DNA from: Sphingomonas sp. NFR15
Lineage (GTDB): Bacteria; Pseudomonadota; Alphaproteobacteria; Sphingomonadales; Sphingomonadaceae
DNA: 64,000 nucleotides
NCBI RefSeq assembly: GCF_900103265.1
Contig: NZ_FMWX01000001.1
Location: forward strand, 558,001 to 622,000
Reading direction: 5' to 3'
The position numbers and the translations under genes are program-made. Within the stretch, counting starts at the first letter, position 1; each line of letters opens with the position of its first letter. Below, piece after piece: positions 212 to 12,622 of the stretch. Below the pieces are notes generated by a model. That model was not told where the DNA came from, ran no database searches, and saw nothing but the letters and a program-made list of their open reading frames with translations.

Positions 212-1000
212 TTACCCCAGCCGCATCGTCGGCGTCAGCCACACCGTCCCGCGCCCACGGAACAGATACACCAGCCCCTCGCCGCTGCGCCACGCGTTGC
301 GCAGACCCCGCACGAGCGGACGCAGCTCGACCTGCAAGCCCGCCGAATACATCAGCATCAGGTCGCCATCGACGATCAGCTCCTTCTGGCCGTCGAGTTC
401 GACCACCTCGATCTCGTCCGCCGGCACCGGCGACTCGACGACGAACGCGCCCGCGCCGGTCAGCTTGGGCTGCATCAGGCCATTGCCCGACAGGATGCCC
501 TGCACCGAGCGGTGGATATGGGTCGACAGCGCGACATTGGCGTCGCAGGCGTAGAACGCGCCGTCGTCGAGGATCAGCGCATCCTGCGGGCCGTCCATCG
601 CGGCGAGGATGAAGTGCTTGGTGGTCACCTCGGTCCACACCTCGCCATAGCCGGCATAGCGGGTCGCGAACGCGCTCTCGCCCGATCCGGCCGAGGTGAT
701 CGCGCGCGAGAGGAAGCCGCCCGCGCCGGCGTTCTTCTGGATATCGACCTGCAGCTTGCCATGCGCATATTGCAGCGCGCCCGGCTCCAGCAGCGCCGCG
801 CCGCCCTCCAGCACGATGCGGACCTGCCGCGCCGTCGCCGCGTGGGGCGGGTGCAGATGGATCACCGGCGCGGTGCCGCTGCTCGCCGATGCGGCGGGCA
901 GCGGCATGTGGAGCGCATGGCTCTTGCGCTCGAACTGATAGACTTCGAAGCGCACGCCGGCGCTGGCCTGCTCGTCGATGCGGGTACGAAAATCGCTCAT
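212..1000 (-). CDS. AIM24/TIGR00266 family protein, last gene of the Ter block
   Basis: A 262-residue protein of the AIM24 (DUF124) beta-fold family, often found with Ter stress genes. It has the Gly-rich repeating beta pattern of the family, for example a GGFLSRAITSAGSGES segment near the middle followed by a GYGEVWTEV strand. There are no membrane segments or signal peptide, so it is probably cytoplasmic. The ATG at 1000 has AGGAG about 8 bases upstream and overlaps the stop of the lyase gene as ATGA, which indicates translational coupling. Biochemical function is unknown. Homologues have been linked to membrane association and stress, so a membrane-surface role in the Ter response is possible but inferred. 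Confidence 0.85.
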   Translation of the reverse strand: MSDFRTRIDEQASAGVRFEVYQFERKSHALHMPLPAASASSGTAPVIHLHPPHAATARQVRIVLEGGAALLEPGALQYAHGKLQVDIQKNAGAGGFLSRAITSAGSGESAFATRYAGYGEVWTEVTTKHFILAAMDGPQDALILDDGAFYACDANVALSTHIHRSVQGILSGNGLMQPKLTGAGAFVVESPVPADEIEVVELDGQKELIVDGDLMLMYSAGLQVELRPLVRGLRNAWRSGEGLVYLFRGRGTVWLTPTMRLG

Positions 1001-1938
1001 TGGTCGGCTCCTGTGATGAGGCGCAGCGCGGGCTGCGGGTCGGCGATTCCGTAAAGCGCCGCGCGTTCGAGCAGCCGTTCGGCCCAGGCGCGGTGCGTTG
1101 CCGGCTCGCACATCGCGCCGTCATGCGCGAACACGGCCGGCGCGTCGTCGGCGAGCATCAGCCGCGCCTCCTCGATTTGCGCGGTCGGCACCGCGAGCGC
1201 GGCGTGGATCACCGCGATCTGATCGGGATGGATCGCGGTCTTGCCCTGCAACCCGTGCTCGATGTCGCGCGCAACCTCCTCGCGCAGCAGCGCAACATCG
1301 GCGAACCGCTCGAACACCGGCGCGCTGAGCGCGAAGCCCCACGGCGCGAAGCTCGCGACGAGGCTGGCGATGATCCCGCCGAGCGGCCCGTCATAGGCGG
1401 TGCGCCCCGCCGGGCGGCGCAAGCCCATCGCGCGCAGCAGATCGTTGCCGCCGATCCGGAGCGCGACGATGCGATCCTGCACCACCAGCAACTGGTCGCG
1501 CAGGCGCCGCATTTCGTGCGGGTCGCACGCTTCGCGCGTCTCCAGCGTCGGCATCAGCCGGTGCCGGTCATGAAACGGCAGCGCGAGATAGGCCGGCATG
1601 GTGTCCGCATGCGCCTTGGGGATGACGAAGCCGGTCAGCCGCTCGACCCCCGGCATGCACAGCACATGCTCGAGCATCGCCGCGTCGCGCGGGCGCACGA
1701 ACAGCAGCGGCTCGCCCGGCCCCGCGCCGCGCGCCGACAGCGTGCGCAGGAACGCCGCGAGATGCGCCAGCGCCAACGGCACGTCGCGATCGAGCACCGC
1801 ATCCTCGAGGCACAGCACCGCCGATCGCAGCCCGGCGATCCGGCGACCGCCAAGCAGTGCCTCGGCGAGATCGTCGCGCGTACACGGCATGTACAGCGTC
1901 GCGCCGAGCGCGAGCGCGGGAAGCGGGTCGAGGGTCAT
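997..1938 (-). CDS. HpcH/HpaI aldolase / citrate lyase beta (CitE)-like protein
   Basis: 313 residues of the PEP/pyruvate-type TIM-barrel C-C lyase superfamily. Visible family features are a Leu-Glu-Asp segment near residues 44-46 (LCLEDAV), a substrate-binding LFVRPRD strand, a RIGGNDLL segment and GKTAIHPDQI near residues 228-238, which matches the CitE 'KxxIHP' signature. Family members cleave or form C-C bonds of acyl-CoA or 2-oxo acid substrates with Mg2+. The substrate here is unknown. CitE-like genes of this subtype occur beside TerD, PRTase and HAD genes and are thought to make a small metabolite. The start ATG at 1938 overlaps the preceding stop (ATGA), as does its own stop with the AIM24 gene. 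Confidence 0.85.
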   Translation of the reverse strand: MTLDPLPALALGATLYMPCTRDDLAEALLGGRRIAGLRSAVLCLEDAVLDRDVPLALAHLAAFLRTLSARGAGPGEPLLFVRPRDAAMLEHVLCMPGVERLTGFVIPKAHADTMPAYLALPFHDRHRLMPTLETREACDPHEMRRLRDQLLVVQDRIVALRIGGNDLLRAMGLRRPAGRTAYDGPLGGIIASLVASFAPWGFALSAPVFERFADVALLREEVARDIEHGLQGKTAIHPDQIAVIHAALAVPTAQIEEARLMLADDAPAVFAHDGAMCEPATHRAWAERLLERAALYGIADPQPALRLITGADQ

Positions 1939-3026
1939 GCATCGTGTCCCAAAGTGCGGATGATCGCCACCGCGCGGTAGCGCGAGCGCTCACCGAGCGG
2001 CTCGACCGGAATCTCATGTTCGGCGGCGAGATGGAGCAGATGCGCGACATCGGCGTCACCCGGATCGCGCACCAGCAGGCGCTCGGGCATGCGCCTGAGC
2101 AACGCGCGCGTCGCCTCGGCGATGCCGGGTTTGATCCGGTTGCGGTCGCGCGTGCCCGCATGCGCGAGCAGCGCCGCCATCATCGCCTCGCACCCCGCGC
2201 GCAGCGCCGGTCGGCGATCGGCGTGGTCCGCGATCGGCCGGGGCGCGGCGGCGGCGGCGAGCGGCGCGATGCCATCGACGAAGGCGCGCGACAGATCGGC
2301 GTGGGCGAACTGCGGATAGGTGACGCAGGCGTGGAAATCCTCCGGCCCGACCACGTCGGCGTTGAGGATCGAGCGGCTCACCAGCCCCGAGACGATGCCG
2401 TTGAGCAGCCCCGACGCGATCAGATAATCGTCGTCGGTCGCGGCGAGGTCGGCCTGCCCCGCCGGATCGGCGATCACCGCGAGTTCGGGCGCGAAGCCGA
2501 ACGGGCGCTCGGCGAGCGCGGCGCGGAGTTCCCCCGCGATCGCGCCCTTGCCGGTCCAGCCGTCGACGAACACCGCATCACGCGGATCATGGCGTGCCGC
2601 GATATGAGCGAGCGCGTTCCGGTCGATGCCGCGATCGCGGATGATGCTGACGGAATAATGGCTCGCTCGGTGCCCCCAGGCGCGCAGCGTCCGCGCGAGC
2701 AGCACCCCGATCGGCGTGCCCGCGCGCGCCAGCGACACGATCACCACCTCGCGCCCCGGCCGCCGCTCCGCGAGATGCGCGGCGAGGCTCGCGACATCCT
2801 GCGCCAACCGCGCGCCGTTGCGCGCCAGCGCGGCGTGGTACAGCGCGAGATAGTCGGCGCCCGGCACGCTCTCCGGCGCGATCATCTCCGAATAATGCCG
2901 CCGGCCCGATTGGATCGCCGCTTCCTTCGCCGCGACATCGGTCGCAGGCATTGCCACCGGCTTGAGCAGGAAGGTGACGTCGGCGGGATCGTAGCTGCCG
3001 GAGAACGGCGCGGCTTCAGCCGACAT
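1935..3026 (-). CDS. StiP/PRTase_1 family protein with C-terminal PELOTA-like domain
   Basis: 363 residues. The N-terminal two thirds match the ter-associated phosphoribosyltransferase-like family (also named 'cysteine protease StiP family' in databases): GRRHYSE at 41-47, SLARAGTP at 98-105 and the PRPP-loop-like VFVDGWTGKG at 152-161. Roughly the last 90 residues, rich in Arg and ending in YRAVAIIRTLG, fit the PELOTA-type RNA-binding fold attached to this family. The inferred role is transfer of a phosphoribosyl or related group during synthesis of a nucleoside-like compound; no reaction has been shown from sequence. Its 5' end overlaps the HAD gene by 11 bases and its 3' end overlaps the lyase gene. 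Confidence 0.8.
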   Translation of the reverse strand: MSAEAAPFSGSYDPADVTFLLKPVAMPATDVAAKEAAIQSGRRHYSEMIAPESVPGADYLALYHAALARNGARLAQDVASLAAHLAERRPGREVVIVSLARAGTPIGVLLARTLRAWGHRASHYSVSIIRDRGIDRNALAHIAARHDPRDAVFVDGWTGKGAIAGELRAALAERPFGFAPELAVIADPAGQADLAATDDDYLIASGLLNGIVSGLVSRSILNADVVGPEDFHACVTYPQFAHADLSRAFVDGIAPLAAAAAPRPIADHADRRPALRAGCEAMMAALLAHAGTRDRNRIKPGIAEATRALLRRMPERLLVRDPGDADVAHLLHLAAEHEIPVEPLGERSRYRAVAIIRTLGHDA

Positions 3027-3765
3027 CGAACAGGCCCCCCGCGAGTTGCGAGCGCGGCGGCATCATCGCGAAGTCGCACAGCGCCATGAACGGCGCATCG
3101 GTATGGCTGTCGCCCACGCCGATCACCGGCGCGTCGGGGAAGCGCGCGCGCAGCGCCGGCAGGATATGCGCAACGGCATGCGCCTTGCCGAGATAGGGCG
3201 GCATCAGCGCGACATTGTTGCCGTTGCGATGGTCGGTCCAGCCATCGGGCAACGCGGGGATCGCGGCATCGACCACCGCGAACAGCGCCTCGGCATCGGC
3301 ATCGGCGTGCTTGGCGAGCGTGTAGAGCGGCAGATCGCCCTCGTTCAGCACGCGCGCGTTGATCGCGACGCCGCGCGCGCGCGCCTCGGTGGCGATCGCG
3401 TCGGCGAACACGGCCAGCGTCTCGGCATGGGGGGCGGCGCGCAGGGCAATGATCTCAGCCCAGCCCGAATCGATCGCGCCGGTATCGTCGAGGATCACCC
3501 CGCCATGCGCACACACCGCCGCGCGGAACGGAATGTGCGCCCGCCTGAGCGCATCGAGGCTGCGCGCGGTGACGGGCACGAGATGCGTCGTCTCGGCGAG
3601 CCATTCGAGGAACCGCATCTGGCGCGGCGTCGCATAGCTCAGCGGCGCGCCGTCCTTGGCGAAGCCGAGCGGGGTCAGCCGCTCGACCGGCACGTCGGGC
3701 GGGCATTTTCGGAGTGTCTGGAACAATGTGTCGTCGAGATCGACGAGCGCGATCGCGCGGATCAT
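3016..3765 (-). CDS. HAD-superfamily hydrolase of the Ter biosynthetic module
   Basis: 249 residues with the full HAD signature: motif I DLDDTL at residues 9-14 (nucleophile Asp9, acid Asp11), motif II Thr66 in VPVTARS, Lys194 in YLGKAHAV and motif IV GVGDSHTDAPFM with Asp219 and Asp223. The large insertion between motifs II and III suggests a C2-type (Cof-like) cap. It probably removes a phosphate from a phosphosugar or nucleotide intermediate made by the neighbouring PRTase-like proteins. The start ATG overlaps the upstream PRTase/TRSP stop by four bases. Conservation of all catalytic residues argues for an active enzyme. Confidence 0.88.
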   Translation of the reverse strand: MIRAIALVDLDDTLFQTLRKCPPDVPVERLTPLGFAKDGAPLSYATPRQMRFLEWLAETTHLVPVTARSLDALRRAHIPFRAAVCAHGGVILDDTGAIDSGWAEIIALRAAPHAETLAVFADAIATEARARGVAINARVLNEGDLPLYTLAKHADADAEALFAVVDAAIPALPDGWTDHRNGNNVALMPPYLGKAHAVAHILPALRARFPDAPVIGVGDSHTDAPFMALCDFAMMPPRSQLAGGLFDVG

Positions 3766-4865
3766 GCCGACCAGCCGATCGGCGTGGCATCGAGCGCGGC
3801 GATCAGCGCCGGATCGAGCGTGTCCGCGCCGGTTTCGTGCGCGATCAGCGTCATGCGGCCGTCCGCCGGATCGGCGTTGTAGAGGTAATTGGGCACGCCG
3901 GTTCCATAATTGTCGGAGAAGCGGAGCTTGCTGGCCATCGCCAGCCCGATCCGCGCCGGGCTGCGGCTGGTCGCCTGCACGACCACGTCATGCCCTTCGC
4001 CCGCGAGACGTTCGGCAAGACGGAACGGCAGATAGGTGAACTCGCCGGTGCCGAGCACGCGCACCGGCCCGGTGATCTCGGGCACGGCGCTAACCGGCGG
4101 CGGCGCCACCGGCGCGGCGATGCCCAGCCGCCCGAAGTTACGATGCGACCGCATCCGCCCCAGCGACGCCGCCGCCCGATCGAACCCCGCGTCCGCCGCC
4201 ACGTCGGCGCCCTGCGTCCACGCCAGCCGCCCGCCGAGCAGCGCCGCCACCGCGGTCGGTCGCGGCATCCGCGCTCGCCAGTCGCGTCCGCGCGACCAGT
4301 CGGTCAGCGTCGCCACCACGATCTCCTCGACACGCGGCCATGCCGCCACCAGCGCCTCGGCGAGGTTGCACAAGGTCGTGCCGGTCGAAATCTCGTCATC
4401 GACGATCACCAGGCTGCGCGGCTCGGGCAGGTCGGGGCGGTAGATCAGATGCGCCGAAGCATGGCTGTGCGGCTCCTCGAACCGGCACAGCAACGGATGG
4501 TCGAGCTGCTGTCGCGTCGAATGGAGGAAAAACACATCGTCGCGCCCGGTCGCCGCACGCAGTTCCTCATGCACCGTCTGGCCGAGGCACACGGCGGTCT
4601 CGGCGAGGCCAATCACCATCACCGGCCCCGGCAGATCGGCCGGGATGCGCGCCGCCAGATCGCGCGCGCTCTCGCGGATCAGGTGCGGCGGCGTCGGCAG
4701 ATGCCGCCCGAGCACGCGCGACACGACGAGGAAGCCGCGCCTGGGGTTCTCGCGCGCGGCGAACGCGCACAGCCGGTCGAGCGGCCACGCGGCCTCCTCG
4801 ACCGCGATGTCGAGCCGCCCGGTCGGCAACTCCACCGTGCGCGTCTCTTCGGCGATGCTCAGCAT
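3762..4865 (-). CDS. Phosphoribosyltransferase (PRTase_2) with C-terminal TRSP domain
   Basis: 367 residues. The PRPP-binding loop is clear at 152-164 (LVIVDDEISTGTT). The C-terminal part holds the motif that names the TRSP domain, here T299-S-R-S-P303, together with GTGEFTYLPFRLAE at 272-285 and an SDNYGTG segment near 317. This two-domain arrangement is characteristic of ter-linked operons. The start was placed at the ATG at 4865, not at the upstream in-frame codons, because it begins MLSIAEE and overlaps the protease-fusion stop by only seven bases. The probable role is phosphoribosyl or nucleoside transfer in a specialised metabolite pathway (inferred). Confidence 0.85.
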   Translation of the reverse strand: MLSIAEETRTVELPTGRLDIAVEEAAWPLDRLCAFAARENPRRGFLVVSRVLGRHLPTPPHLIRESARDLAARIPADLPGPVMVIGLAETAVCLGQTVHEELRAATGRDDVFFLHSTRQQLDHPLLCRFEEPHSHASAHLIYRPDLPEPRSLVIVDDEISTGTTLCNLAEALVAAWPRVEEIVVATLTDWSRGRDWRARMPRPTAVAALLGGRLAWTQGADVAADAGFDRAAASLGRMRSHRNFGRLGIAAPVAPPPVSAVPEITGPVRVLGTGEFTYLPFRLAERLAGEGHDVVVQATSRSPARIGLAMASKLRFSDNYGTGVPNYLYNADPADGRMTLIAHETGADTLDPALIAALDATPIGWSA

Positions 4866-6013
4866 TCGCACGTCACCCGCGCGATCATGTCGCGCGCCTG
4901 GCGCACGACGGCGGCGCGGCCGATCACGGCATTGCCGTGCGCCATCTGCGGCTCGATGCCGAACGAATCGAGGAAACTGAGGATCATCGCGCCCTTGATG
5001 CCGAAATTGATATTCTCCGCGCTCGCCCCGGTCTGGCGCACGCGGTCGAGATTGAGCGAGGAACATACCAGCCCGATCAGATGCCCCGCCATGTCGAGAA
5101 TCGGACCGCCGCTGTTGCCGCTCGCGATCGGCGCGGTGAATTGGAACAGGCTGCTGTCGTTGCCGATCCCGGTCAGCGCCGCGATGTTGCCCGCGCTCGC
5201 CTGCGGCCCGGTGCCGAGCAGCCCCTGCAACGGAAACCCCAAAGCGACGACATCCTCGCCGAGATGCAGCCCCACTTCGGAGCGGAACTGCGCGATCCCC
5301 GCGACCGGCGCCTCGACCCGCAGCAGCGCGAGATCGTTGCGGCGGTCGGCGAACACCGTGTCGGCGGCGAGCGGCCGCCCGCCCGCCTGCACCGTCACCA
5401 CCCGCGCATCCTCGACGACATGCGCGTTGGTCAGGATATGGTGGCGCTCGACCGCGACACCGCTCCCGCTCGACGTGCCCGCGCGCGGGCCGCGCTCGCC
5501 ATCCGGCGCATCCGGCGGCTGCAAGCGCGGGATCAGCCGCATCACCCAGTCATGATCGATCCCATAGGCCGCCGCGATCGCGCTCAGCCCCATCGCGAAG
5601 CCCTGGCCGTTGGCGGCGATCCGCCACCCGCCTTGGTGCCGATAGCATTCTATCAGGATGACGGCGGCATCGGGCCGTGCGCGCAGATCGGCCGCGAAGC
5701 GCATGTCGCCCAGGTCGAGCGTGACCACCCGCTCGATCGGCCGATTGCCGCGATCGAAAGCGATCAGAAGCAGCCGCTCGACCGCGCCCGGCATCTCGTC
5801 GAGCGCGACGCGCAGCCGCGTGGCGCCCTCGAACCGCGCGGCGGGGCGCATCTCCCGCGTCACCGCGTCGATCGGCGCGAAGACCGGCGACACGCGCCGA
5901 TCCGCCCCTAGCGCGATCAGCGCCAGCGTCGGCGGGTCGCCGCCATCCCCGGCGAGCGCGAACACGCCCGCGCCGGAGATGGCGGCCCGTTCGCCCGCGA
6001 CCAGATCACGCAT
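4859..6013 (-). CDS. TerD-domain protein fused to a trypsin-like serine protease
   Basis: 384 residues in two parts. Residues about 1-155 form a divergent TerD beta-sandwich ending in the family's C-terminal signature (CYRHQGGWRIAANGQGF, then GL). Residues about 178-350 are an S1/HtrA-like protease with an apparently complete triad: His198 in ILTNAHVV, Asp227 in RRNDLALL and Ser301 in GNSGGPI. No signal peptide or PDZ domain is evident, so the protease seems cytoplasmic. Its position between two ordinary terD genes and the PRTase/HAD genes suggests it links metal or stress sensing to proteolysis. The target is unknown. The N-terminal acidic Ca2+-binding residues typical of TerD look degenerate here. 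Confidence 0.85.
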   Translation of the reverse strand: MRDLVAGERAAISGAGVFALAGDGGDPPTLALIALGADRRVSPVFAPIDAVTREMRPAARFEGATRLRVALDEMPGAVERLLLIAFDRGNRPIERVVTLDLGDMRFAADLRARPDAAVILIECYRHQGGWRIAANGQGFAMGLSAIAAAYGIDHDWVMRLIPRLQPPDAPDGERGPRAGTSSGSGVAVERHHILTNAHVVEDARVVTVQAGGRPLAADTVFADRRNDLALLRVEAPVAGIAQFRSEVGLHLGEDVVALGFPLQGLLGTGPQASAGNIAALTGIGNDSSLFQFTAPIASGNSGGPILDMAGHLIGLVCSSLNLDRVRQTGASAENINFGIKGAMILSFLDSFGIEPQMAHGNAVIGRAAVVRQARDMIARVTCEC

Positions 6014-6034: not shown

Positions 6035-6610
6035 TCAGACGTTGACGCCGAACGACCGCGCGAGCGGCCCGAGCCCGCCGGCGAAGCCCTGCCCGATCGC
6101 CTTGAACTTCCACTCGCCATTGTTGCGGTAGAGATCGCCGAAGATCATCGCCGTCTCGGTCGATGCGTCTTCGGACAGGTCGTAGCGCGCGATCTCGGTG
6201 CCGCCGTCATTGTTGACGACGCGGATGTAGGCGTTCGAGACCATGCCGAAATTCTGGCGCCGCGCGTCGGCGTCGTGGATCGTCACCGCGAAGCTGAGTT
6301 TCTGGATCTCGGCGGGCACCTGATCGAGCGTCACCACCACGACCTCGTCGTCGCCGCTGCCCTCGCCGGTCTGGTTGTCGCCCTGGTGGACGACCGCGCC
6401 GTTGGCACCGTTCTTGTTGTTGTAGAACACGAAATCCGCGTCCGAACGGACCTTCCCGCTCTCGCTCAGCAGGAAGACGCTGGCATCGAGATCGAACCCG
6501 GCGCCGTCGGTCACGCGCGTATCCCAGCCGAGGCCGACGCGCACGACCTTGAGGCCGGGCGCCTCCTTGCTGAGGCTGACGTTGCCGCCCTTCGAAAGTG
6601 AAACTGCCAT
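6035..6610 (-). CDS. terD: TerD family protein
   Basis: 191 residues, the usual TerD length. It shows both acidic Ca2+-binding motifs, [10 protein letters not shown] (Asp40/Asp42) and [13 protein letters not shown] at 77-89, and the C-terminal [16 protein letters not shown] pattern. TerD proteins are soluble beta-sandwich proteins that bind Ca2+ and work with TerC in resistance to tellurite, oxidants, phage or DNA damage. The ATG at 6610 has AGGAG about 7 bases upstream; an in-frame TTG at 6616 is less likely. It is very similar to the preceding gene, pointing to tandem duplication. Confidence 0.93.
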
Positions 6611-6634
6611 ATCCAACTCCTTGTCCGGCCGATA

Positions 6635-7213
6635 TCAGCCGATGTTGACGCCATAATTGCGCGCGAGCGGGGCGAGGCCGCCCTTGAAGCCCTGCCCGAC
6701 CGCGCGGAACTTCCATTCGCCGTTGTTGCGATAGACTTCGCCGAAGATCATCGCCGTCTCCGTCGAGGCATCCTCGGCGAGGTCATAACGCGAGATCTCG
6801 CGGCCCGTCGCATCGTTTACGATGCGGATGAACGCGTTGGAGACCATGCCGAAGCTCTGGCGGCGCGCCTCGGCCTCGTGAATGGTCACGGTGATCGCGA
6901 TCTTCTGCACGTCGGCGGGCACGCGGGTCAGCTCGACCTTGAGCGCTTCGTCATCGCCATCGCCTTCGCCGGTGCGGTTGTCGCCGGTGTGCTCGACCGA
7001 TCCGTCGCCTGAGCGCAGATTGTTGTAGAAGATGAAATCGCTGTCGCTGCGCACCTTGTCGCCCGCCGCGAGCAGAAAGGCACTCGCGTCGAGGTCGAAG
7101 TCGGCGCCGTCCGACGTGCGGGTGTCCCAGCCGAGCCCGATCAGGATCTTGCTGAGGTTGGGTTCCTCCTTCGACAGACTGACATTGCCGCCTTTGGTGA
7201 GGCTAACCGACAT
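6635..7213 (-). CDS. terD: TerD family protein (second paralogue)
   Basis: 192 residues, collinear and highly similar to the next gene downstream. [11 protein letters not shown] near 39-49, a [13 protein letters not shown] metal-binding loop and [16 protein letters not shown] at the C-terminus are all intact. It probably binds Ca2+ and acts at the inner face of the membrane with the TerC-like protein encoded 15 bases upstream. The ATG at 7213 is preceded by AGGAG. Two near-identical copies in a row may allow hetero-oligomers or higher dosage (inferred). Confidence 0.93.
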
Positions 7214-7228: not shown

Positions 7229-8347
7229 TTACGAGTTGTTGAGCCGCTCGCCGGTGGCCACGATCGCGTCGTCATCGTCGTCACCCTTGGCGCGCAGCGA
7301 CGCGACGAAGGCGAGGCCGATCAGCCCCGCGCCGATCAGCCCGGTCACCGTCTCGGGGATTTCGAAGCGCACCGACAGCAGCATGATCGTGGCGAGCGCG
7401 ACGATCGCGTAGAACGCGCCATGCTCGAGATACCGATATTCGGAGAGCGTGCCGCGATCGACCAGCATCACCGTCATCGACCGCACGAACATCGCGCCGA
7501 TGCCGAGGCCGAGCGCGATGATGAACAGGTTGTTCGACAGCGCGAACGCGCCGATCACGCCGTCGAACGAGAAGGACGCGTCGAGCACTTCGAGGTACAG
7601 GAACGCCGCCAACCCCGATTTCGCCGCCGTCACCGCGACCGCGTGGCCGCCGGCATGCGCCGCGCCGCCCTGCGAATCCTCGTCGCCGTCGGCCTGTTCG
7701 AGCACCGCGCCGATCGCCTGCACGGCGATATAGGCGACCAGCCCGAAGATCCCCGAGGTGATGAAGGTCATCGCCTCCTCGGGTGCGATCAGCCGCGAAA
7801 TGCCGTAGAGCGCGAGGAGCACGATGCCGATCGCCAGCCCCGAGATCCGCGACAGGCCCGCGAACGGGCGCTCGATCACGCCGATCCAGTGCATGTCCTT
7901 GTCTTCGTCGAGGAAGAACGTCAGCCCGACCATCGCGAGGAACGCGCCGCCGAATCCGGAAATGCCGACATGCGCGCCGGTGATGATCCGCTCGTAGGTG
8001 ACCGGATCGGTCGCGGCGAGCTTGAGCGCCTCGATCGGCCCGACCTGCGCGGCGATCGCGACGATCACCAGCGGGAACAGGATTCGCATCCCGAACACCG
8101 CGATGATGATGCCCCAGGACAGGAAGCGGCGGCGCCAGATCGGGTCCATGTCGCGCAGCACGGTCGCGTTGACGACGGCATTGTCGAACGACAGCGAGAC
8201 TTCGAGCACGCCGAGCACCAGCACGATCCACAGGATGCCGAGCGTGCCCGCGACATCATGCGTGATCGTCCAGCCCAGCACCGCGCCGATCGCGAGGCAC
8301 AGCGCGGTGAAGAGCAACGATCCCCTGAAATATTTGAACACCATCAT
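7229..8347 (-). CDS. TerC-like integral membrane protein (DUF475 type)
   Basis: About 372 residues with some nine hydrophobic segments. TerC-superfamily signatures are present twice: membrane-embedded acidic residues in LEVSLSFDNAVVNA (Glu49, Asp55) and again in LEVLDASFSFDGVIGAF in the second half. Members are proposed metal-ion transporters or membrane anchors for TerD proteins. A cytoplasmic Asp-rich tail (KGDDDDDA) precedes the stop. Start candidates are ATG at 8347 or 8344, just after GGGGG, or a TTG at 8374 that would overlap the upstream stop; I chose 8347 because family members begin near FKYFRGS. Confidence 0.88.
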   Translation of the reverse strand: MMVFKYFRGSLLFTALCLAIGAVLGWTITHDVAGTLGILWIVLVLGVLEVSLSFDNAVVNATVLRDMDPIWRRRFLSWGIIIAVFGMRILFPLVIVAIAAQVGPIEALKLAATDPVTYERIITGAHVGISGFGGAFLAMVGLTFFLDEDKDMHWIGVIERPFAGLSRISGLAIGIVLLALYGISRLIAPEEAMTFITSGIFGLVAYIAVQAIGAVLEQADGDEDSQGGAAHAGGHAVAVTAAKSGLAAFLYLEVLDASFSFDGVIGAFALSNNLFIIALGLGIGAMFVRSMTVMLVDRGTLSEYRYLEHGAFYAIVALATIMLLSVRFEIPETVTGLIGAGLIGLAFVASLRAKGDDDDDAIVATGERLNNS

Positions 8348-8370
8348 CCCCCGGTTCGCCGCGTGCGGCC

Positions 8371-9549
8371 TCAATCCTTGCGCCCGGCGACCCAGCGCAG
8401 GCCCCAGCCGAGCGATTCGTCGAACATGCGCGTATCATGGAGATATTCCACGATCCGCGTAACCTTGATTGCACCCGCGTCATTTTCGATCAGCACGATC
8501 CCGCACAGCCTGCGGTCGTCGCGCCCCTCGGTCAGCCGCACTTCGATCGGCGGCTGGTCCGGCATGGTGACGAGCACCACGCCATCGGTCTGCTGCCAGT
8601 TGGGCACGCCCGAATAGATGTTGGCGAACACCGCGACGCGCTTGATCTGCGGCCAGAACGCGCCGTTGATGCGCAGCGTCTCGCCCGCCGAAACGTCGCC
8701 GGTGCGGTCATCGCCCGACAGCGCGATATAGGGCGCGTGATCGAAGGATCCGAACGAGTTGCCGAGCGCCTGCACACCGCCCTTGCGCCCGTCGATGAGC
8801 TCGAAGAGGCAGCCGATGTCGAGATCGATCGCGCTGCCGCCGCCGAACAGCCCCTTGCGCCCACGCGACCAGTTGAGGTTGATCGTGATCTCGCCGAAGC
8901 TCGCGCCGCGCTTGGCGAGGCTTACGGTCTGCCCGCGCTTCTCCAGCGTCACCTTGCTGAGGCTGACCGGCGGCGGAGCGGGCGGGGGCGGAGGAGGAGG
9001 CGGTGTCGCAGCGGCCGGCGGCTCGTCGGCGACGTCGATCCCGAACGACCGCGCGAGCGGCGCAAGCCCGCCGTTGAACCCTTGGCCGACCGCACGGAAC
9101 TTCCATTGCCCATTTCGGCGATACAGTTCGCCGAAGGTCATCGCCGCCTCGCTCGCCCCGGCGAGCTGCGGCCGAAAGCGCAACGCTTCCCCGCCACCAC
9201 GCGGCGCAACGGTGATCTCGGCGCCGTCGAGCCGCGCCAGCGTCTCGCCTCGCGTCTGCGCGTCGGGGAGCGTCACGCAAAACACGATCCGCTCGATCTC
9301 GGCGGGTAGCCGCGCAAGATCGACCTCGAACGCGCCCTGCCCGCGCGACGCATCGAAACGGATGCCGCCGCCATCGCCCTCGGGCTGGTTGTAGAACACC
9401 ATGTCGGCGTCGCCGCGCACCTTGCCGGTCGCGGTCAGCAGATAAGCGGACGCATCGGCGTCCACCCCGCCCGTCGCGCTCCAGGCGAACGTCACGGCCA
9501 GCGCGTCGCCCGGGACGGGCGCATTGCCGCCCTGTTGCAGATCGGTCAT
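8371..9549 (-). CDS. Double TerD-domain protein (TerD-Pro linker-TerA-like)
   Basis: 392 residues. Residues 1-178 are a TerD domain with a partly degenerate first metal motif (VDADASAYLL), but [20 protein letters not shown] is intact. A run of proline and alanine at about 179-198 is a flexible linker. Residues 199-392 are a second TerD-like domain of TerA type, starting SLSKVTLEKRGQTVSL, with SAIDLDIGCLFEL and a GDDRTGDVSAGE loop. TerA proteins normally pair with TerD and TerZ in these operons. The ATG at 9549 follows AGGAG. The stop is 24 bases from the chosen terC-like start. Confidence 0.88.
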   Translation of the reverse strand: MTDLQQGGNAPVPGDALAVTFAWSATGGVDADASAYLLTATGKVRGDADMVFYNQPEGDGGGIRFDASRGQGAFEVDLARLPAEIERIVFCVTLPDAQTRGETLARLDGAEITVAPRGGGEALRFRPQLAGASEAAMTFGELYRRNGQWKFRAVGQGFNGGLAPLARSFGIDVADEPPAAATPPPPPPPPAPPPVSLSKVTLEKRGQTVSLAKRGASFGEITINLNWSRGRKGLFGGGSAIDLDIGCLFELIDGRKGGVQALGNSFGSFDHAPYIALSGDDRTGDVSAGETLRINGAFWPQIKRVAVFANIYSGVPNWQQTDGVVLVTMPDQPPIEVRLTEGRDDRRLCGIVLIENDAGAIKVTRIVEYLHDTRMFDESLGWGLRWVAGRKD

Positions 9550-9593: not shown

Positions 9594-10175
9594 TCAGAGC
9601 ACGCCGCGGATCACACCCATCATATCGTGGAAGGTCCGTCCGGTGGTGCGCTCGCCCAGCGCCTTCATCTCCCAGCCATCGCCCGAGCGCACCAGCTTCG
9701 CCATCACCTGCCCGGTGTGCGGACCCGATCCGCTGAGATCATAGCGCGCCATTTCCTTGCCATTGGTCGAATCCACAACGCGGCAATAGGCGTTTTCGAT
9801 CCGGTCGAAACTTTCGCCGGTGAAGCTGTTGACCGTGAACACCAGCGATCGCACCGTGGCGGGCACCCGCGTGAGATCGACATTGATCGTCTCGTCGTCG
9901 CCGTCCCCGGCGCCGGTGCGGTTGTCGCCGCTATGGACGATGCTGCCGTCCGCGCTGACGAGCTGCCGGAACCACACCTGATCGAGCAGCGCCCCGCCCG
10001 CATCGAACAGCAGGCACGACGCGTCGAGATCGATATCGCCGCCACCGCCGCCGAACAGGCCGAACAGCCCCTTGGACTTGCGCACGTCCCAGCCCACGCC
10101 CATCGCCACCCGCGTCAGCGTGCCGCCGCCCGACTTTTCCAGCTTTACAGTTTGGCCTTTTTGCAGACTGACCAC
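9594..10175 (-). CDS. TerD/TerZ-like protein, first gene of the terD run
   Basis: 193 residues with GWDVRKSKG, a Gly-rich insertion (KGLFGLFGGGGG) typical of TerZ/TerE subtypes, DIDLDASCLLFD and GDNRTGAGDGDDE metal motifs, and a C-terminus that departs from the YRNNGEWKF pattern. The start is GTG at 10175 with GGAGAAG about 7 bases upstream; no in-frame ATG fits. A promoter-like pair at 10223-10250 lies just upstream, so this may be the first cistron of the main Ter transcript. Confidence 0.88.
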   Translation of the reverse strand: MVSLQKGQTVKLEKSGGGTLTRVAMGVGWDVRKSKGLFGLFGGGGGDIDLDASCLLFDAGGALLDQVWFRQLVSADGSIVHSGDNRTGAGDGDDETINVDLTRVPATVRSLVFTVNSFTGESFDRIENAYCRVVDSTNGKEMARYDLSGSGPHTGQVMAKLVRSGDGWEMKALGERTTGRTFHDMMGVIRGVL

Positions 10176-10266: not shown

Positions 10267-11286
10267 TCATCCCCGCGCCGCATCGGTTCGTCGTCGCCGC
10301 TCGGCATGGACCACCGCGACGATTTCGACGTTCACATCGGCGTCGAAGCGCCGCGCGGCGCCGGTCACGACATCGACCCAGGTCGCGCTGAACGGCACGC
10401 CCACCGCGTCGCAATAGGACGCGCCGCCCGCCGCGCGCGTGTTGATTTCGAGGATGCGCCACGCGCCCTCGCGATCCTGCCGGTACTGGACGTTGACCGC
10501 ACCGTGCAGCGCGTAGCGCGCGACCAGACCGACGGCGTGGGCGATCAGCGGATGCCGCGTCTCGATGCGCTGCCGGTTGGCGTCGAGCTTGGTCCGCACC
10601 GCCGCGACCAGCGTGTCGCCACGATCCGCGACGATGTCGACCGATGCCTCCAGCCCCGGCAGATGCTCCATCACCAGCAGCGAGAAGGTCTCGCCGCGCG
10701 CCTCGCCCGCCCGCAACGCGGCGGCATAGACCTCGGGCGCGATCCGCCGCGCATCGGGATCGGCGAGATGCTGGAGCGCGGTCGCCGCATCGAGCGTCCA
10801 ATAGCCGGCGCCGTAAATCCCCGTCGCCGGCTTGACGCAGGCGACCGCACCGCCCCGCGCGATCGCATCCACCGCCGCCTCGAACGCCGCCGCCGTCGTG
10901 ACCGGGATCGTCGGGCACAGCATCGCATCCCCGGCCAGCGCCGCCGAAAACGCCGCCTTGTCGTCGAGCAGCCGCAATGTCGCCGCGTCGGCGGCGACAT
11001 GCAGCGCGATCCCTTCCGCCGCGAACCGGTCGGCCATCCCGGCGACATCCATGCGCCCCCGCTGCGCGACCAGCGCATCGACGCCGCGTTCGATCGCGGT
11101 CGCGAGCAGCCATTCCGGGTAATCGAAGGTGCCGCGTGCCGGCTCGCGCCAGAATTCGGGCGCGACATCGCGCACCGGCGACTCCGGGTCGATCGCGCTG
11201 ACGCACAACGAAATGCCGGGCCGCTCGACGGCGATGCGAGAGACGATGTTGCGGAGCGAAAACGCCTGGTTGAACCACAGCTTCAT
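10267..11286 (-). CDS. ATP-grasp domain protein of the Ter module
   Basis: 339 residues beginning MKLWFNQAFSL. The layout is that of ATP-grasp ligases: an N-terminal pre-ATP-grasp region, a central ATP-binding strand VACVKPATGIYGAGYW (phosphate-contacting loop), a VMEHLPG segment, and the C-terminal metal site ILEINTRAAGGASY with Glu-Ile-Asn. ATP-grasp proteins of this sort accompany TerD/PRTase/HAD genes and probably ligate an amino acid or carboxylate to a metabolite. The ATG at 11286 was chosen over a longer frame running antisense through rplK. It is divergent from rplK across 200 bases. Confidence 0.85.
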   Translation of the reverse strand: MKLWFNQAFSLRNIVSRIAVERPGISLCVSAIDPESPVRDVAPEFWREPARGTFDYPEWLLATAIERGVDALVAQRGRMDVAGMADRFAAEGIALHVAADAATLRLLDDKAAFSAALAGDAMLCPTIPVTTAAAFEAAVDAIARGGAVACVKPATGIYGAGYWTLDAATALQHLADPDARRIAPEVYAAALRAGEARGETFSLLVMEHLPGLEASVDIVADRGDTLVAAVRTKLDANRQRIETRHPLIAHAVGLVARYALHGAVNVQYRQDREGAWRILEINTRAAGGASYCDAVGVPFSATWVDVVTGAARRFDADVNVEIVAVVHAERRRRTDAARG

Positions 11287-11487
11287 AGCTCGGCGGATAT
11301 CGCCCCTCGCCGTCACGTCAACCGCGGCGCGCCGATTGCATCGCCACGCCGCTTGCGCTATGCGCCCGCGCTTCCAGAGCGACAGCAATGGGATTCGTGC
11401 GGGAGGGCGCTGTGACACGCGCCCGCTACCAACCGCTAGACTTGATCGGGGCACGCCACCGTGCGGGCCCGACCGAAAGAGAGTGAC

Positions 11488-11919
11488 ATGGCAAAGAAGA
11501 TTACCGGATACATCAAGCTGCAGGTTCCTGCAGGCAAGGCGAACCCCTCGCCGCCGATCGGCCCGGCGCTGGGTCAGCGCGGCGTGAACATCATGGAGTT
11601 CTGCAAGCAGTTCAACGCCTCGACGGGCGATCAGGAAGTCGGCACCCCGCTGCCGACCATCATCACCGTCTATGCCGACCGCAGCTTCTCGTTCGAGACC
11701 AAGACGCCGCCGGCGACCTATCTCATCAAGAAGGCCGCGAACCTGAAGTCGGGTTCGAAGGAGCCGGGCAAGACCTCGGCGGGCAAGATCGCCCGGTCGA
11801 AGCTGTCGGAAATCGCGCAGGCCAAGATGAAGGATCTGAACGCGAACGACATCGAAGCGGCAACGCGCATCATCGAGGGCTCGGCCCGCGCGATGGGCCT
11901 CGAAGTGGTGGAGGGCTGA
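11488..11919 (+). CDS. rplK: 50S ribosomal protein L11
   Basis: 143 residues, the standard L11 length. It starts [32 protein letters not shown], with the Pro-rich N-terminal domain that binds factors and the C-terminal domain for 23S rRNA GTPase-centre binding. The ATG at 11488 follows a GA-rich Shine-Dalgarno (AAAGAGAG). A weak promoter-like pair, TTGCAT (11336-11341) and TATGCG (11359-11364), lies upstream. The usual neighbours secE and nusG are not directly upstream; the Ter ATP-grasp gene is there instead, on the other strand. Confidence 0.97.
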
Positions 11920-11923
11920 TATC

Positions 11924-12622
11924 ATGGCAAAGCTGACCAAGAAGGCGAAGACCCTCGCCACCGTGATCGACCGCGACAAGCTGTACGGCATCAACGAGGC
12001 GATCGAATTGGCCCGCTCCAACGCGACCTCGAAGTTCGACGAGACGATCGAAGTCGCGCTCAACCTCGGCGTCGATCCGCGTCACGCCGACCAGATGGTG
12101 CGCGGCGTCGTCACGCTGCCCAAGGGCACCGGCAAGACCGTGCGCGTCGGCGTGTTCGCCAAGGGCGCGAAGGCTGAGGAGGCGCTCGCCGCCGGTGCCG
12201 ACGTCGTCGGCGCCGAAGACCTCATGGAAATCGTCCAGGGCGGCAAGATCGACTTCGATCGCTGCATCGCGACCCCGGACATGATGGGCGTCGTCGGCCG
12301 GCTCGGCAAGATCCTGGGTCCGAAGGGCCTGATGCCGAACCCCAAGCTCGGCACCGTCACGATGAACGTCGCGCAGGCGGTCAAGGACGCCAAGGGCGGC
12401 CAGATCGAATATCGCGTCGAGAAGGCCGGCATCATCCACTCGGGCATCGGCAAGGCGTCGTTCCCGGCCGAAGACCTGCGCGCGAACTTCGACGCGCTGG
12501 TCGATGCCGTGGTCAAGGCGAAGCCGGCGGGCGCCAAGGGCAAGTATGTCCGCAAGGTCGCCGTCAGCTCGACGATGGGCGCCGGCATCAAGGTCGACAC
12601 CGCCGAGGTGAGCGCGGCGTAA
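11924..12622 (+). CDS. rplA: 50S ribosomal protein L1
   Basis: 232 residues, usual L1 length, with the conserved [15 protein letters not shown] segment and the C-terminal [10 protein letters not shown]. It binds 23S rRNA at the L1 stalk and in many bacteria represses its own operon. It begins four bases after the rplK stop, with GGAGGGC ahead of the ATG, so the two are co-transcribed. A strong terminator follows 28 bases after the stop. Confidence 0.97.

Follow-up and report, generated by a model that had tools for sequence, protein, structure and literature searches.

In an extended ter operon of Sphingomonas sp. NFR15, one gene encodes, with near certainty, a single protein in which a TerD-fold domain is fused to a Trypsin_2/HtrA-type S1 protease. 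With a probability of roughly 0.5, this fusion serves the extended Ter system as a cytoplasmic, TerF-like adaptor protease; by a mechanism that we infer, it would cleave a particular protein when the cell is stressed or attacked by phage. The stretch of DNA analysed (64,000 nucleotides; hereafter the window) carries the features listed in Table 1. The TerD–trypsin architecture itself has been known since 2008 (PMC2605481); new here are its link to the operon, an active site shown to be conserved, the cytoplasmic setting, the loss of canonical acidic residues and the co-existence with TerF.

Table 1. Features of the fusion gene and the surrounding ter operon (window positions), and TerF genes encoded separately in fusion-carrying genomes and plasmids.
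Feature	Position	Strand	Evidence or remark
TerD–trypsin fusion gene, 384 aa	4859..6013	-	ATG 6013–6011, stop 4861–4859; full length kept in 14 aligned proteins
TerD-fold domain, residues 1–160, divergent, acidic metal-site residues mostly gone	5534..6013	-	Pfam, hhalign, Foldseek
Linker, residues 161–179, variable in length and sequence	5477..5533	-	Alignment; pLDDT <50 at 166–178
Trypsin_2/HtrA-type S1 protease domain, residues 180–384	4862..5476	-	Pfam Trypsin_2, phmmer, dN/dS
Catalytic His198 codon	5420..5422	-	Invariant, 14/14
Catalytic Asp227 codon	5333..5335	-	Invariant, 14/14
Catalytic Ser301 codon, within GNSGG	5111..5113	-	Invariant, 14/14
ATP-grasp ligase of the Ter biosynthetic module (ATPgrasp_Ter)	10267..11286	-	Pfam PF15632 E 9e-27
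TerZ-type TerD protein	9594..10175	-	Pfam TerD E 1e-45
TerA, two TerD stretches	8371..9549	-	Pfam TerD E 2e-46
TerC/DUF475 membrane protein	7229..8374	-	Pfam DUF475 E 1e-108, TerC E 7e-18
Canonical TerD	6635..7213	-	Pfam TerD E 9e-88; phmmer to 2kxt E 9e-92
TerE-type TerD protein, immediately upstream of the fusion	6035..6610	-	Pfam TerD E 6e-85
Phosphoribosyltransferase (PRTase_2 + TRSP)	3762..4865	-	Pfam E 3e-56
HAD-type phosphatase of the Ter biosynthetic module	3016..3765	-	Weak HAD matches; syntenic orthologues
StiP–PELOTA protein, predicted cysteine protease / RNA-binding	1935..3026	-	Pfam StiP E 8e-98, PELOTA_1 E 3e-24
C-C bond lyase, citrate-lyase-like	997..1938	-	Pfam E 2e-88
AIM24-family protein, operon end	212..1000	-	Pfam E 8e-35; present in most Sphingomonadales loci
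Separate TerF (TerD–vWA) genes	L085:1572-3029; L086:1486-2865; L087–L089		PF10138

Pfam recognized Trypsin_2 at residues 183–315 (E 1e-25) and TerD at residues 104–150 only (E 2e-7; 31.1 bits against a curated cut-off of 25.3), the latter match covering just the last quarter of the TerD profile. Residues 1–103 were tested by a profile–profile comparison (hhalign), in which the TerD halves of 13 fusions were set against ten canonical TerD/TerE proteins and the homology extended across the whole domain (160 columns, E 4e-18, probability 99%). An AlphaFold2 model, built from 12 relatives with the plasmid-record rows left out, was confident over the N-terminal domain (10-residue blocks mostly at pLDDT 75–93), and Foldseek matched the predicted fold to the TerD structures 2kxt (E 3e-7, TM 0.65) and 3ibz (E 4e-7, TM 0.64), both TM values being normalised to the target. 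The C-terminal half of the model matches HtrA-type proteases, the loops around the active site being of low confidence. Pfam, the profile comparison and the predicted fold thus agree on the single-frame fusion of a divergent TerD domain and an S1 protease put forward in the initial annotation, and the N-terminal TerD domain that it expected a domain search to find was indeed recovered, in part by Pfam and in whole by the profile comparison. An accident of the reading frame was ruled out by the full-length conservation and the dN/dS values.

The triad of His198, Asp227 and Ser301, together with a GNSGG or GSSGS motif, is invariant in all 14 aligned full-length proteins, whose identity to the window protein falls as low as 33%, and the earlier claim of an intact triad therefore stands. 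Between Sphingomonadales species, the protease half gave dN/dS values of 0.09–0.18, and the TerD half values of 0.16–0.32. The former range indicates that purifying selection has maintained the protease, and it is close to the values for the lyase and StiP enzymes of the operon (0.10 each against S. populi). It is highly probable that the fusion is an active enzyme in the cytoplasm. In established S1 numbering, the position six residues before the catalytic serine is that of Asp189 in trypsin. It is occupied by Pro or Ala in the aligned fusions, so that a trypsin-like preference for Lys/Arg is not expected.

By sequence and fold, the protease half belongs to the same S1 group as HtrA/DegS/DegQ and MarP (Rv3671c); phmmer matched it to DegQ/DegS (E 7e-14), and its closest solved relatives are DegQ/DegP/DegS. 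The HtrA/DegS/DegQ and MarP proteases are periplasmic or membrane-anchored, those of the HtrA group carrying PDZ domains, and none of them is known to have a TerD domain. Unlike the HtrA/Deg family, the fusion lacks both an export signal and a PDZ domain, for which Pfam gave no match in the protein. In the protease tree the fusions formed one clade separate from 34 sampled non-Ter relatives (support 100/96), which fits a single fusion event within the limits of the sample.

No hydrophobic export or membrane segment was detected in the fusion, the highest 19-residue Kyte–Doolittle mean being 1.27. Its start codon follows the terE stop after 21 nt, a gap too short to hide a signal peptide. The initial annotation had seen no signal peptide and had named an exported protein as what would overturn its reading; the hydropathy profile and the short gap uphold the former, and an exported protease was rejected, as there is neither a signal peptide nor a transmembrane segment, nor upstream room for one. 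As judged by eye, the majority of the non-Ter proteins most closely related to the protease half have signal peptides or lipoprotein signals, often together with repeat regions.

The TerD half differs markedly from its canonical counterparts. Around 10 of the 14 acidic positions invariant in canonical TerD, including D30, D40, D42, D88, D144, E147 and D148, are lost in nearly all of the 13 fusion TerD halves. Only E152 is acidic throughout, with D78 present as Glu in most rows, and the positions of D57 and D87 are mixed. The positions compared belong to the canonical TerD motifs GWD, DLDAS, GDN..GDGDDE and RYDL.ED. Since the positions mostly replaced are those invariant in the Ca2+-binding TerD family, the canonical metal site appears to have been lost, as far as can be judged from sequence. 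A similar loss of canonical acidic residues was found in TerF, which is also the usual match of the fusion TerD half among enterobacterial plasmids. In the TerD tree, a branch with 100/99 support places the fusion TerD halves together with TerA and TerF, the long branches allowing no finer placement. It was also observed that the TerD halves of all 12 Sphingomonadales fusions carry an R-E-[ML]-R-P motif at residues 53–57 (window 5843-5857, - strand), which the Pseudomonas ones lack; it is a candidate ligand or partner site.

The genes of the operon are transcribed in the order ATP-grasp_Ter, TerZ, TerA, TerC/DUF475, TerD, TerE, fusion, PRTase_2/TRSP, HAD, StiP–PELOTA, C-C lyase and AIM24, which confirms the Ter-operon setting first proposed for the fusion gene, with terE on one side and the PRTase gene on the other. 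The listed open reading frame of TerE spans 6035–6616 from an upstream TTG, the gene being taken as in Table 1. The PRTase start overlaps the fusion stop by 7 nt (ATGCTGA), suggesting translational coupling. The TerC of the window is of the DUF475 type, in contrast to that of the enterobacterial and Pseudomonas operons, and a search of the genome of the window gave no match for TerB. The AIM24 gene ends most of the Sphingomonadales loci seen, whereas none turned up in those operons examined from Pseudomonas or enterobacteria. Genes resembling rplK and rplA for ribosomal proteins (11461-12622, + strand) adjoin the operon, marking a core chromosomal site.

TerF (TerD + vWA, PF10138) is among the closest comparisons. 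Like the fusion, it has two domains with a TerF/TerA-type TerD half largely devoid of the canonical acidic residues, and it follows terE in enterobacterial operons as the fusion does here; its second domain, however, is a vWA domain rather than a protease, and PF10138 had no match in the fusion protein or in the genome of the window. The idea that the fusion is a TerF whose vWA domain was swapped for a protease, with the two being mutually exclusive, was nevertheless dropped, because TerF was found as a separate gene outside the operon in three of the 12 fusion-carrying Sphingomonadales genomes and in both Pseudomonas plasmids. Such co-existence suggests that the two proteins are companions and not substitutes.

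Ter operons have been associated with tellurite, oxidative stress, colicin and phage phenotypes (PMC12054061), and terCD from P. citronellolis was enough for tellurite resistance (PMC8779313), so that the role of the fusion probably lies outside basic tellurite resistance. In addition, the ter module has been proposed in reviews to make a nucleotide-like product that is sensed by TerD or TerB proteins (PMC7824862; PMC7159879). In view of these phenotypes and this proposed product, an adaptor protease operating in the cytoplasm together with the Ter complex is favoured. Its TerD half, with the canonical metal site lost, would dock the protein on a TerD/TerE/TerA–TerC assembly, or alternatively may read the nucleotide-like product of the ATP-grasp/PRTase/HAD/StiP/lyase module. 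Tellurite, oxidative stress or phage would disturb the Ter assembly, and the HtrA-type protease half would then cut one or a few specific cytoplasmic proteins. The chances that the fusion docks on the Ter complex seem about even, and it is suggested more tentatively that stress or a ligand gates the cleavage of one specific target. The role of the ter operon past tellurite resistance (phage inhibition, colicin resistance and the proposed nucleotide-like product) is the question on which the fusion bears. A catalytic domain travelling with the biosynthetic module would provide an assayable output, namely what S301 cuts and under which cue, and such a role would set the TerD proteins that bind metal apart from a TerF/TerA-like class that lacks the metal site and whose members may act as adaptors.

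The initial annotation had suggested that a Ca2+- or stress-sensing TerD domain would switch the protease, with other Ter proteins or an abortive-infection target as possible substrates. Although the N-terminal domain has the TerD fold and the solved TerD structure 2kxt is described as calcium-binding, the canonical invariant acidic positions are mostly gone from the fusions, as from TerF, and on this reading of the alignment a Ca2+ switch was rejected as very improbable. Hardly more credible is a peptide-binding or scaffold role in which the protease fold is kept and catalysis is not the selected function; inactive trypsin domains do act in this way in other conflict systems (PMC7159879), but the triad and active-site motif have been retained across the whole aligned set, even at its lowest identities. 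A receptor-protease is also doubtful: here the nucleotide-like signal of the Ter module would bind the degenerate TerD pocket and unlock the protease, and a specific host or phage protein would be cut. If true, this would represent a cytoplasmic second-messenger-gated protease inside a tellurium/phage-defence operon.

Two further explanations are unlikely, though less so. The fusion may be a phage-defence effector, whose protease would be activated by infection and cut an essential host or phage protein in an abortive response. Ter operons have been linked to phage inhibition (PMC12054061) and interpreted as conflict systems for which a nucleotide signal is proposed (PMC7824862); systems of this kind often employ protease effectors (PMC7159879), and the PADLOC family RT-Protease_XI resembles the protease half (E 3e-15). 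That match, however, concerns the generic protease domain only, the operon lies beside the rplK–rplA-like genes with no obvious defence island, and terminal effectors usually change fast whereas the fusion protease is strongly conserved. A general quality-control function, with TerD bringing a cytoplasmic HtrA-like protease to stress-damaged proteins without a specific target, was given similar weight: DegQ/DegP/DegS are themselves quality-control or stress proteases, but the missing PDZ domain speaks against it, as does the strict linkage to the Ter biosynthetic operon, which suggests a pathway-specific role.

This linkage is apparent from the genome surveys. The full-length fusion was found in three of 150 genomes of the window's family, and when 200 genomes from the family were searched for StiP, exactly these three were returned. 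In one gammaproteobacterial genus, two of 37 genomes carried the fusion and the same two carried StiP, so that in both surveys the fusion was restricted to genomes with this operon marker (3/3 and 2/2). The probability of such coincidence by chance is about 2e-6 for the family and 2e-3 for the genus, figures that ignore relatedness and sampling overlap. The same architecture in equivalent operons was found in eleven further Sphingomonadales genomes and in Pseudomonas plasmids and genomes. A scan of named genomes (Sphingomonas, Sphingobium, Novosphingobium, Croceibacterium and one MAG) gave ten Sphingomonadales loci, each carrying the complete fusion at the equivalent place in the operon; an ATP-grasp gene lies between terE and the fusion in two of these and in G058. 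In Pseudomonas plasmids and genomes the fusion sits between the ATP-grasp and PRTase genes, and it directly precedes the PRTase gene in the Pseudomonas plasmids and in two further gammaproteobacterial genomes. Conversely, the majority of StiP operons in other parts of the phylum have no fusion, and it counts against the adaptor-protease reading that many related operons function without it.

The BMC Genomics paper of 2008 with the TerD-Tryp architecture listed Pseudomonas syringae YP_273108.1 as functionally uncharacterised (PMC2605481). According to its description, TerD lies N-terminal to the trypsin domain, as in the fusion studied here; the coverage amounts to one table entry and one sentence, without operon context, conservation or active-site analysis. 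The Pseudomonas plasmid homologue (NZ_CP125985, LC653116/Rms139) is full length with around 33–35% identity, and is encoded in an extended ter operon beside the ATP-grasp and PRTase genes. These plasmid operons differ in having the biosynthetic module before terZ, GSSGS in place of GNSGG, a shorter linker and TerB. At least 80% of the query was matched in one place by 126 plasmid records, and the plasmid homologues are named 'trypsin-like peptidase domain-containing protein' in databases. The earlier view that the fusion is not a standard part of Ter operons therefore holds for enterobacterial operons, from which it is absent, and fails for this Sphingomonadales operon, where it is constant, and for the Pseudomonas plasmids, besides the publication of 2008.

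A viral scan with P0001 found no relatives, and phage records matched the protease half only. Searches of the phylum and class with the fusion alignment gave, beyond the window, matches to the protease half only or a short non-TerD extension (L025). In a Proteobacteria MAG (L077:11575-12840, + strand), a very divergent TerD domain, a Pro-rich linker and Trypsin_2 are encoded beside terD and terA-like genes, possibly representing an independent fusion. It was also observed that the genome of P. neustonica contains a second ter operon of the StiP type (L076, 2162-14816), which lacks the fusion and encodes a 416-aa TerD-domain protein after the ATP-grasp gene.
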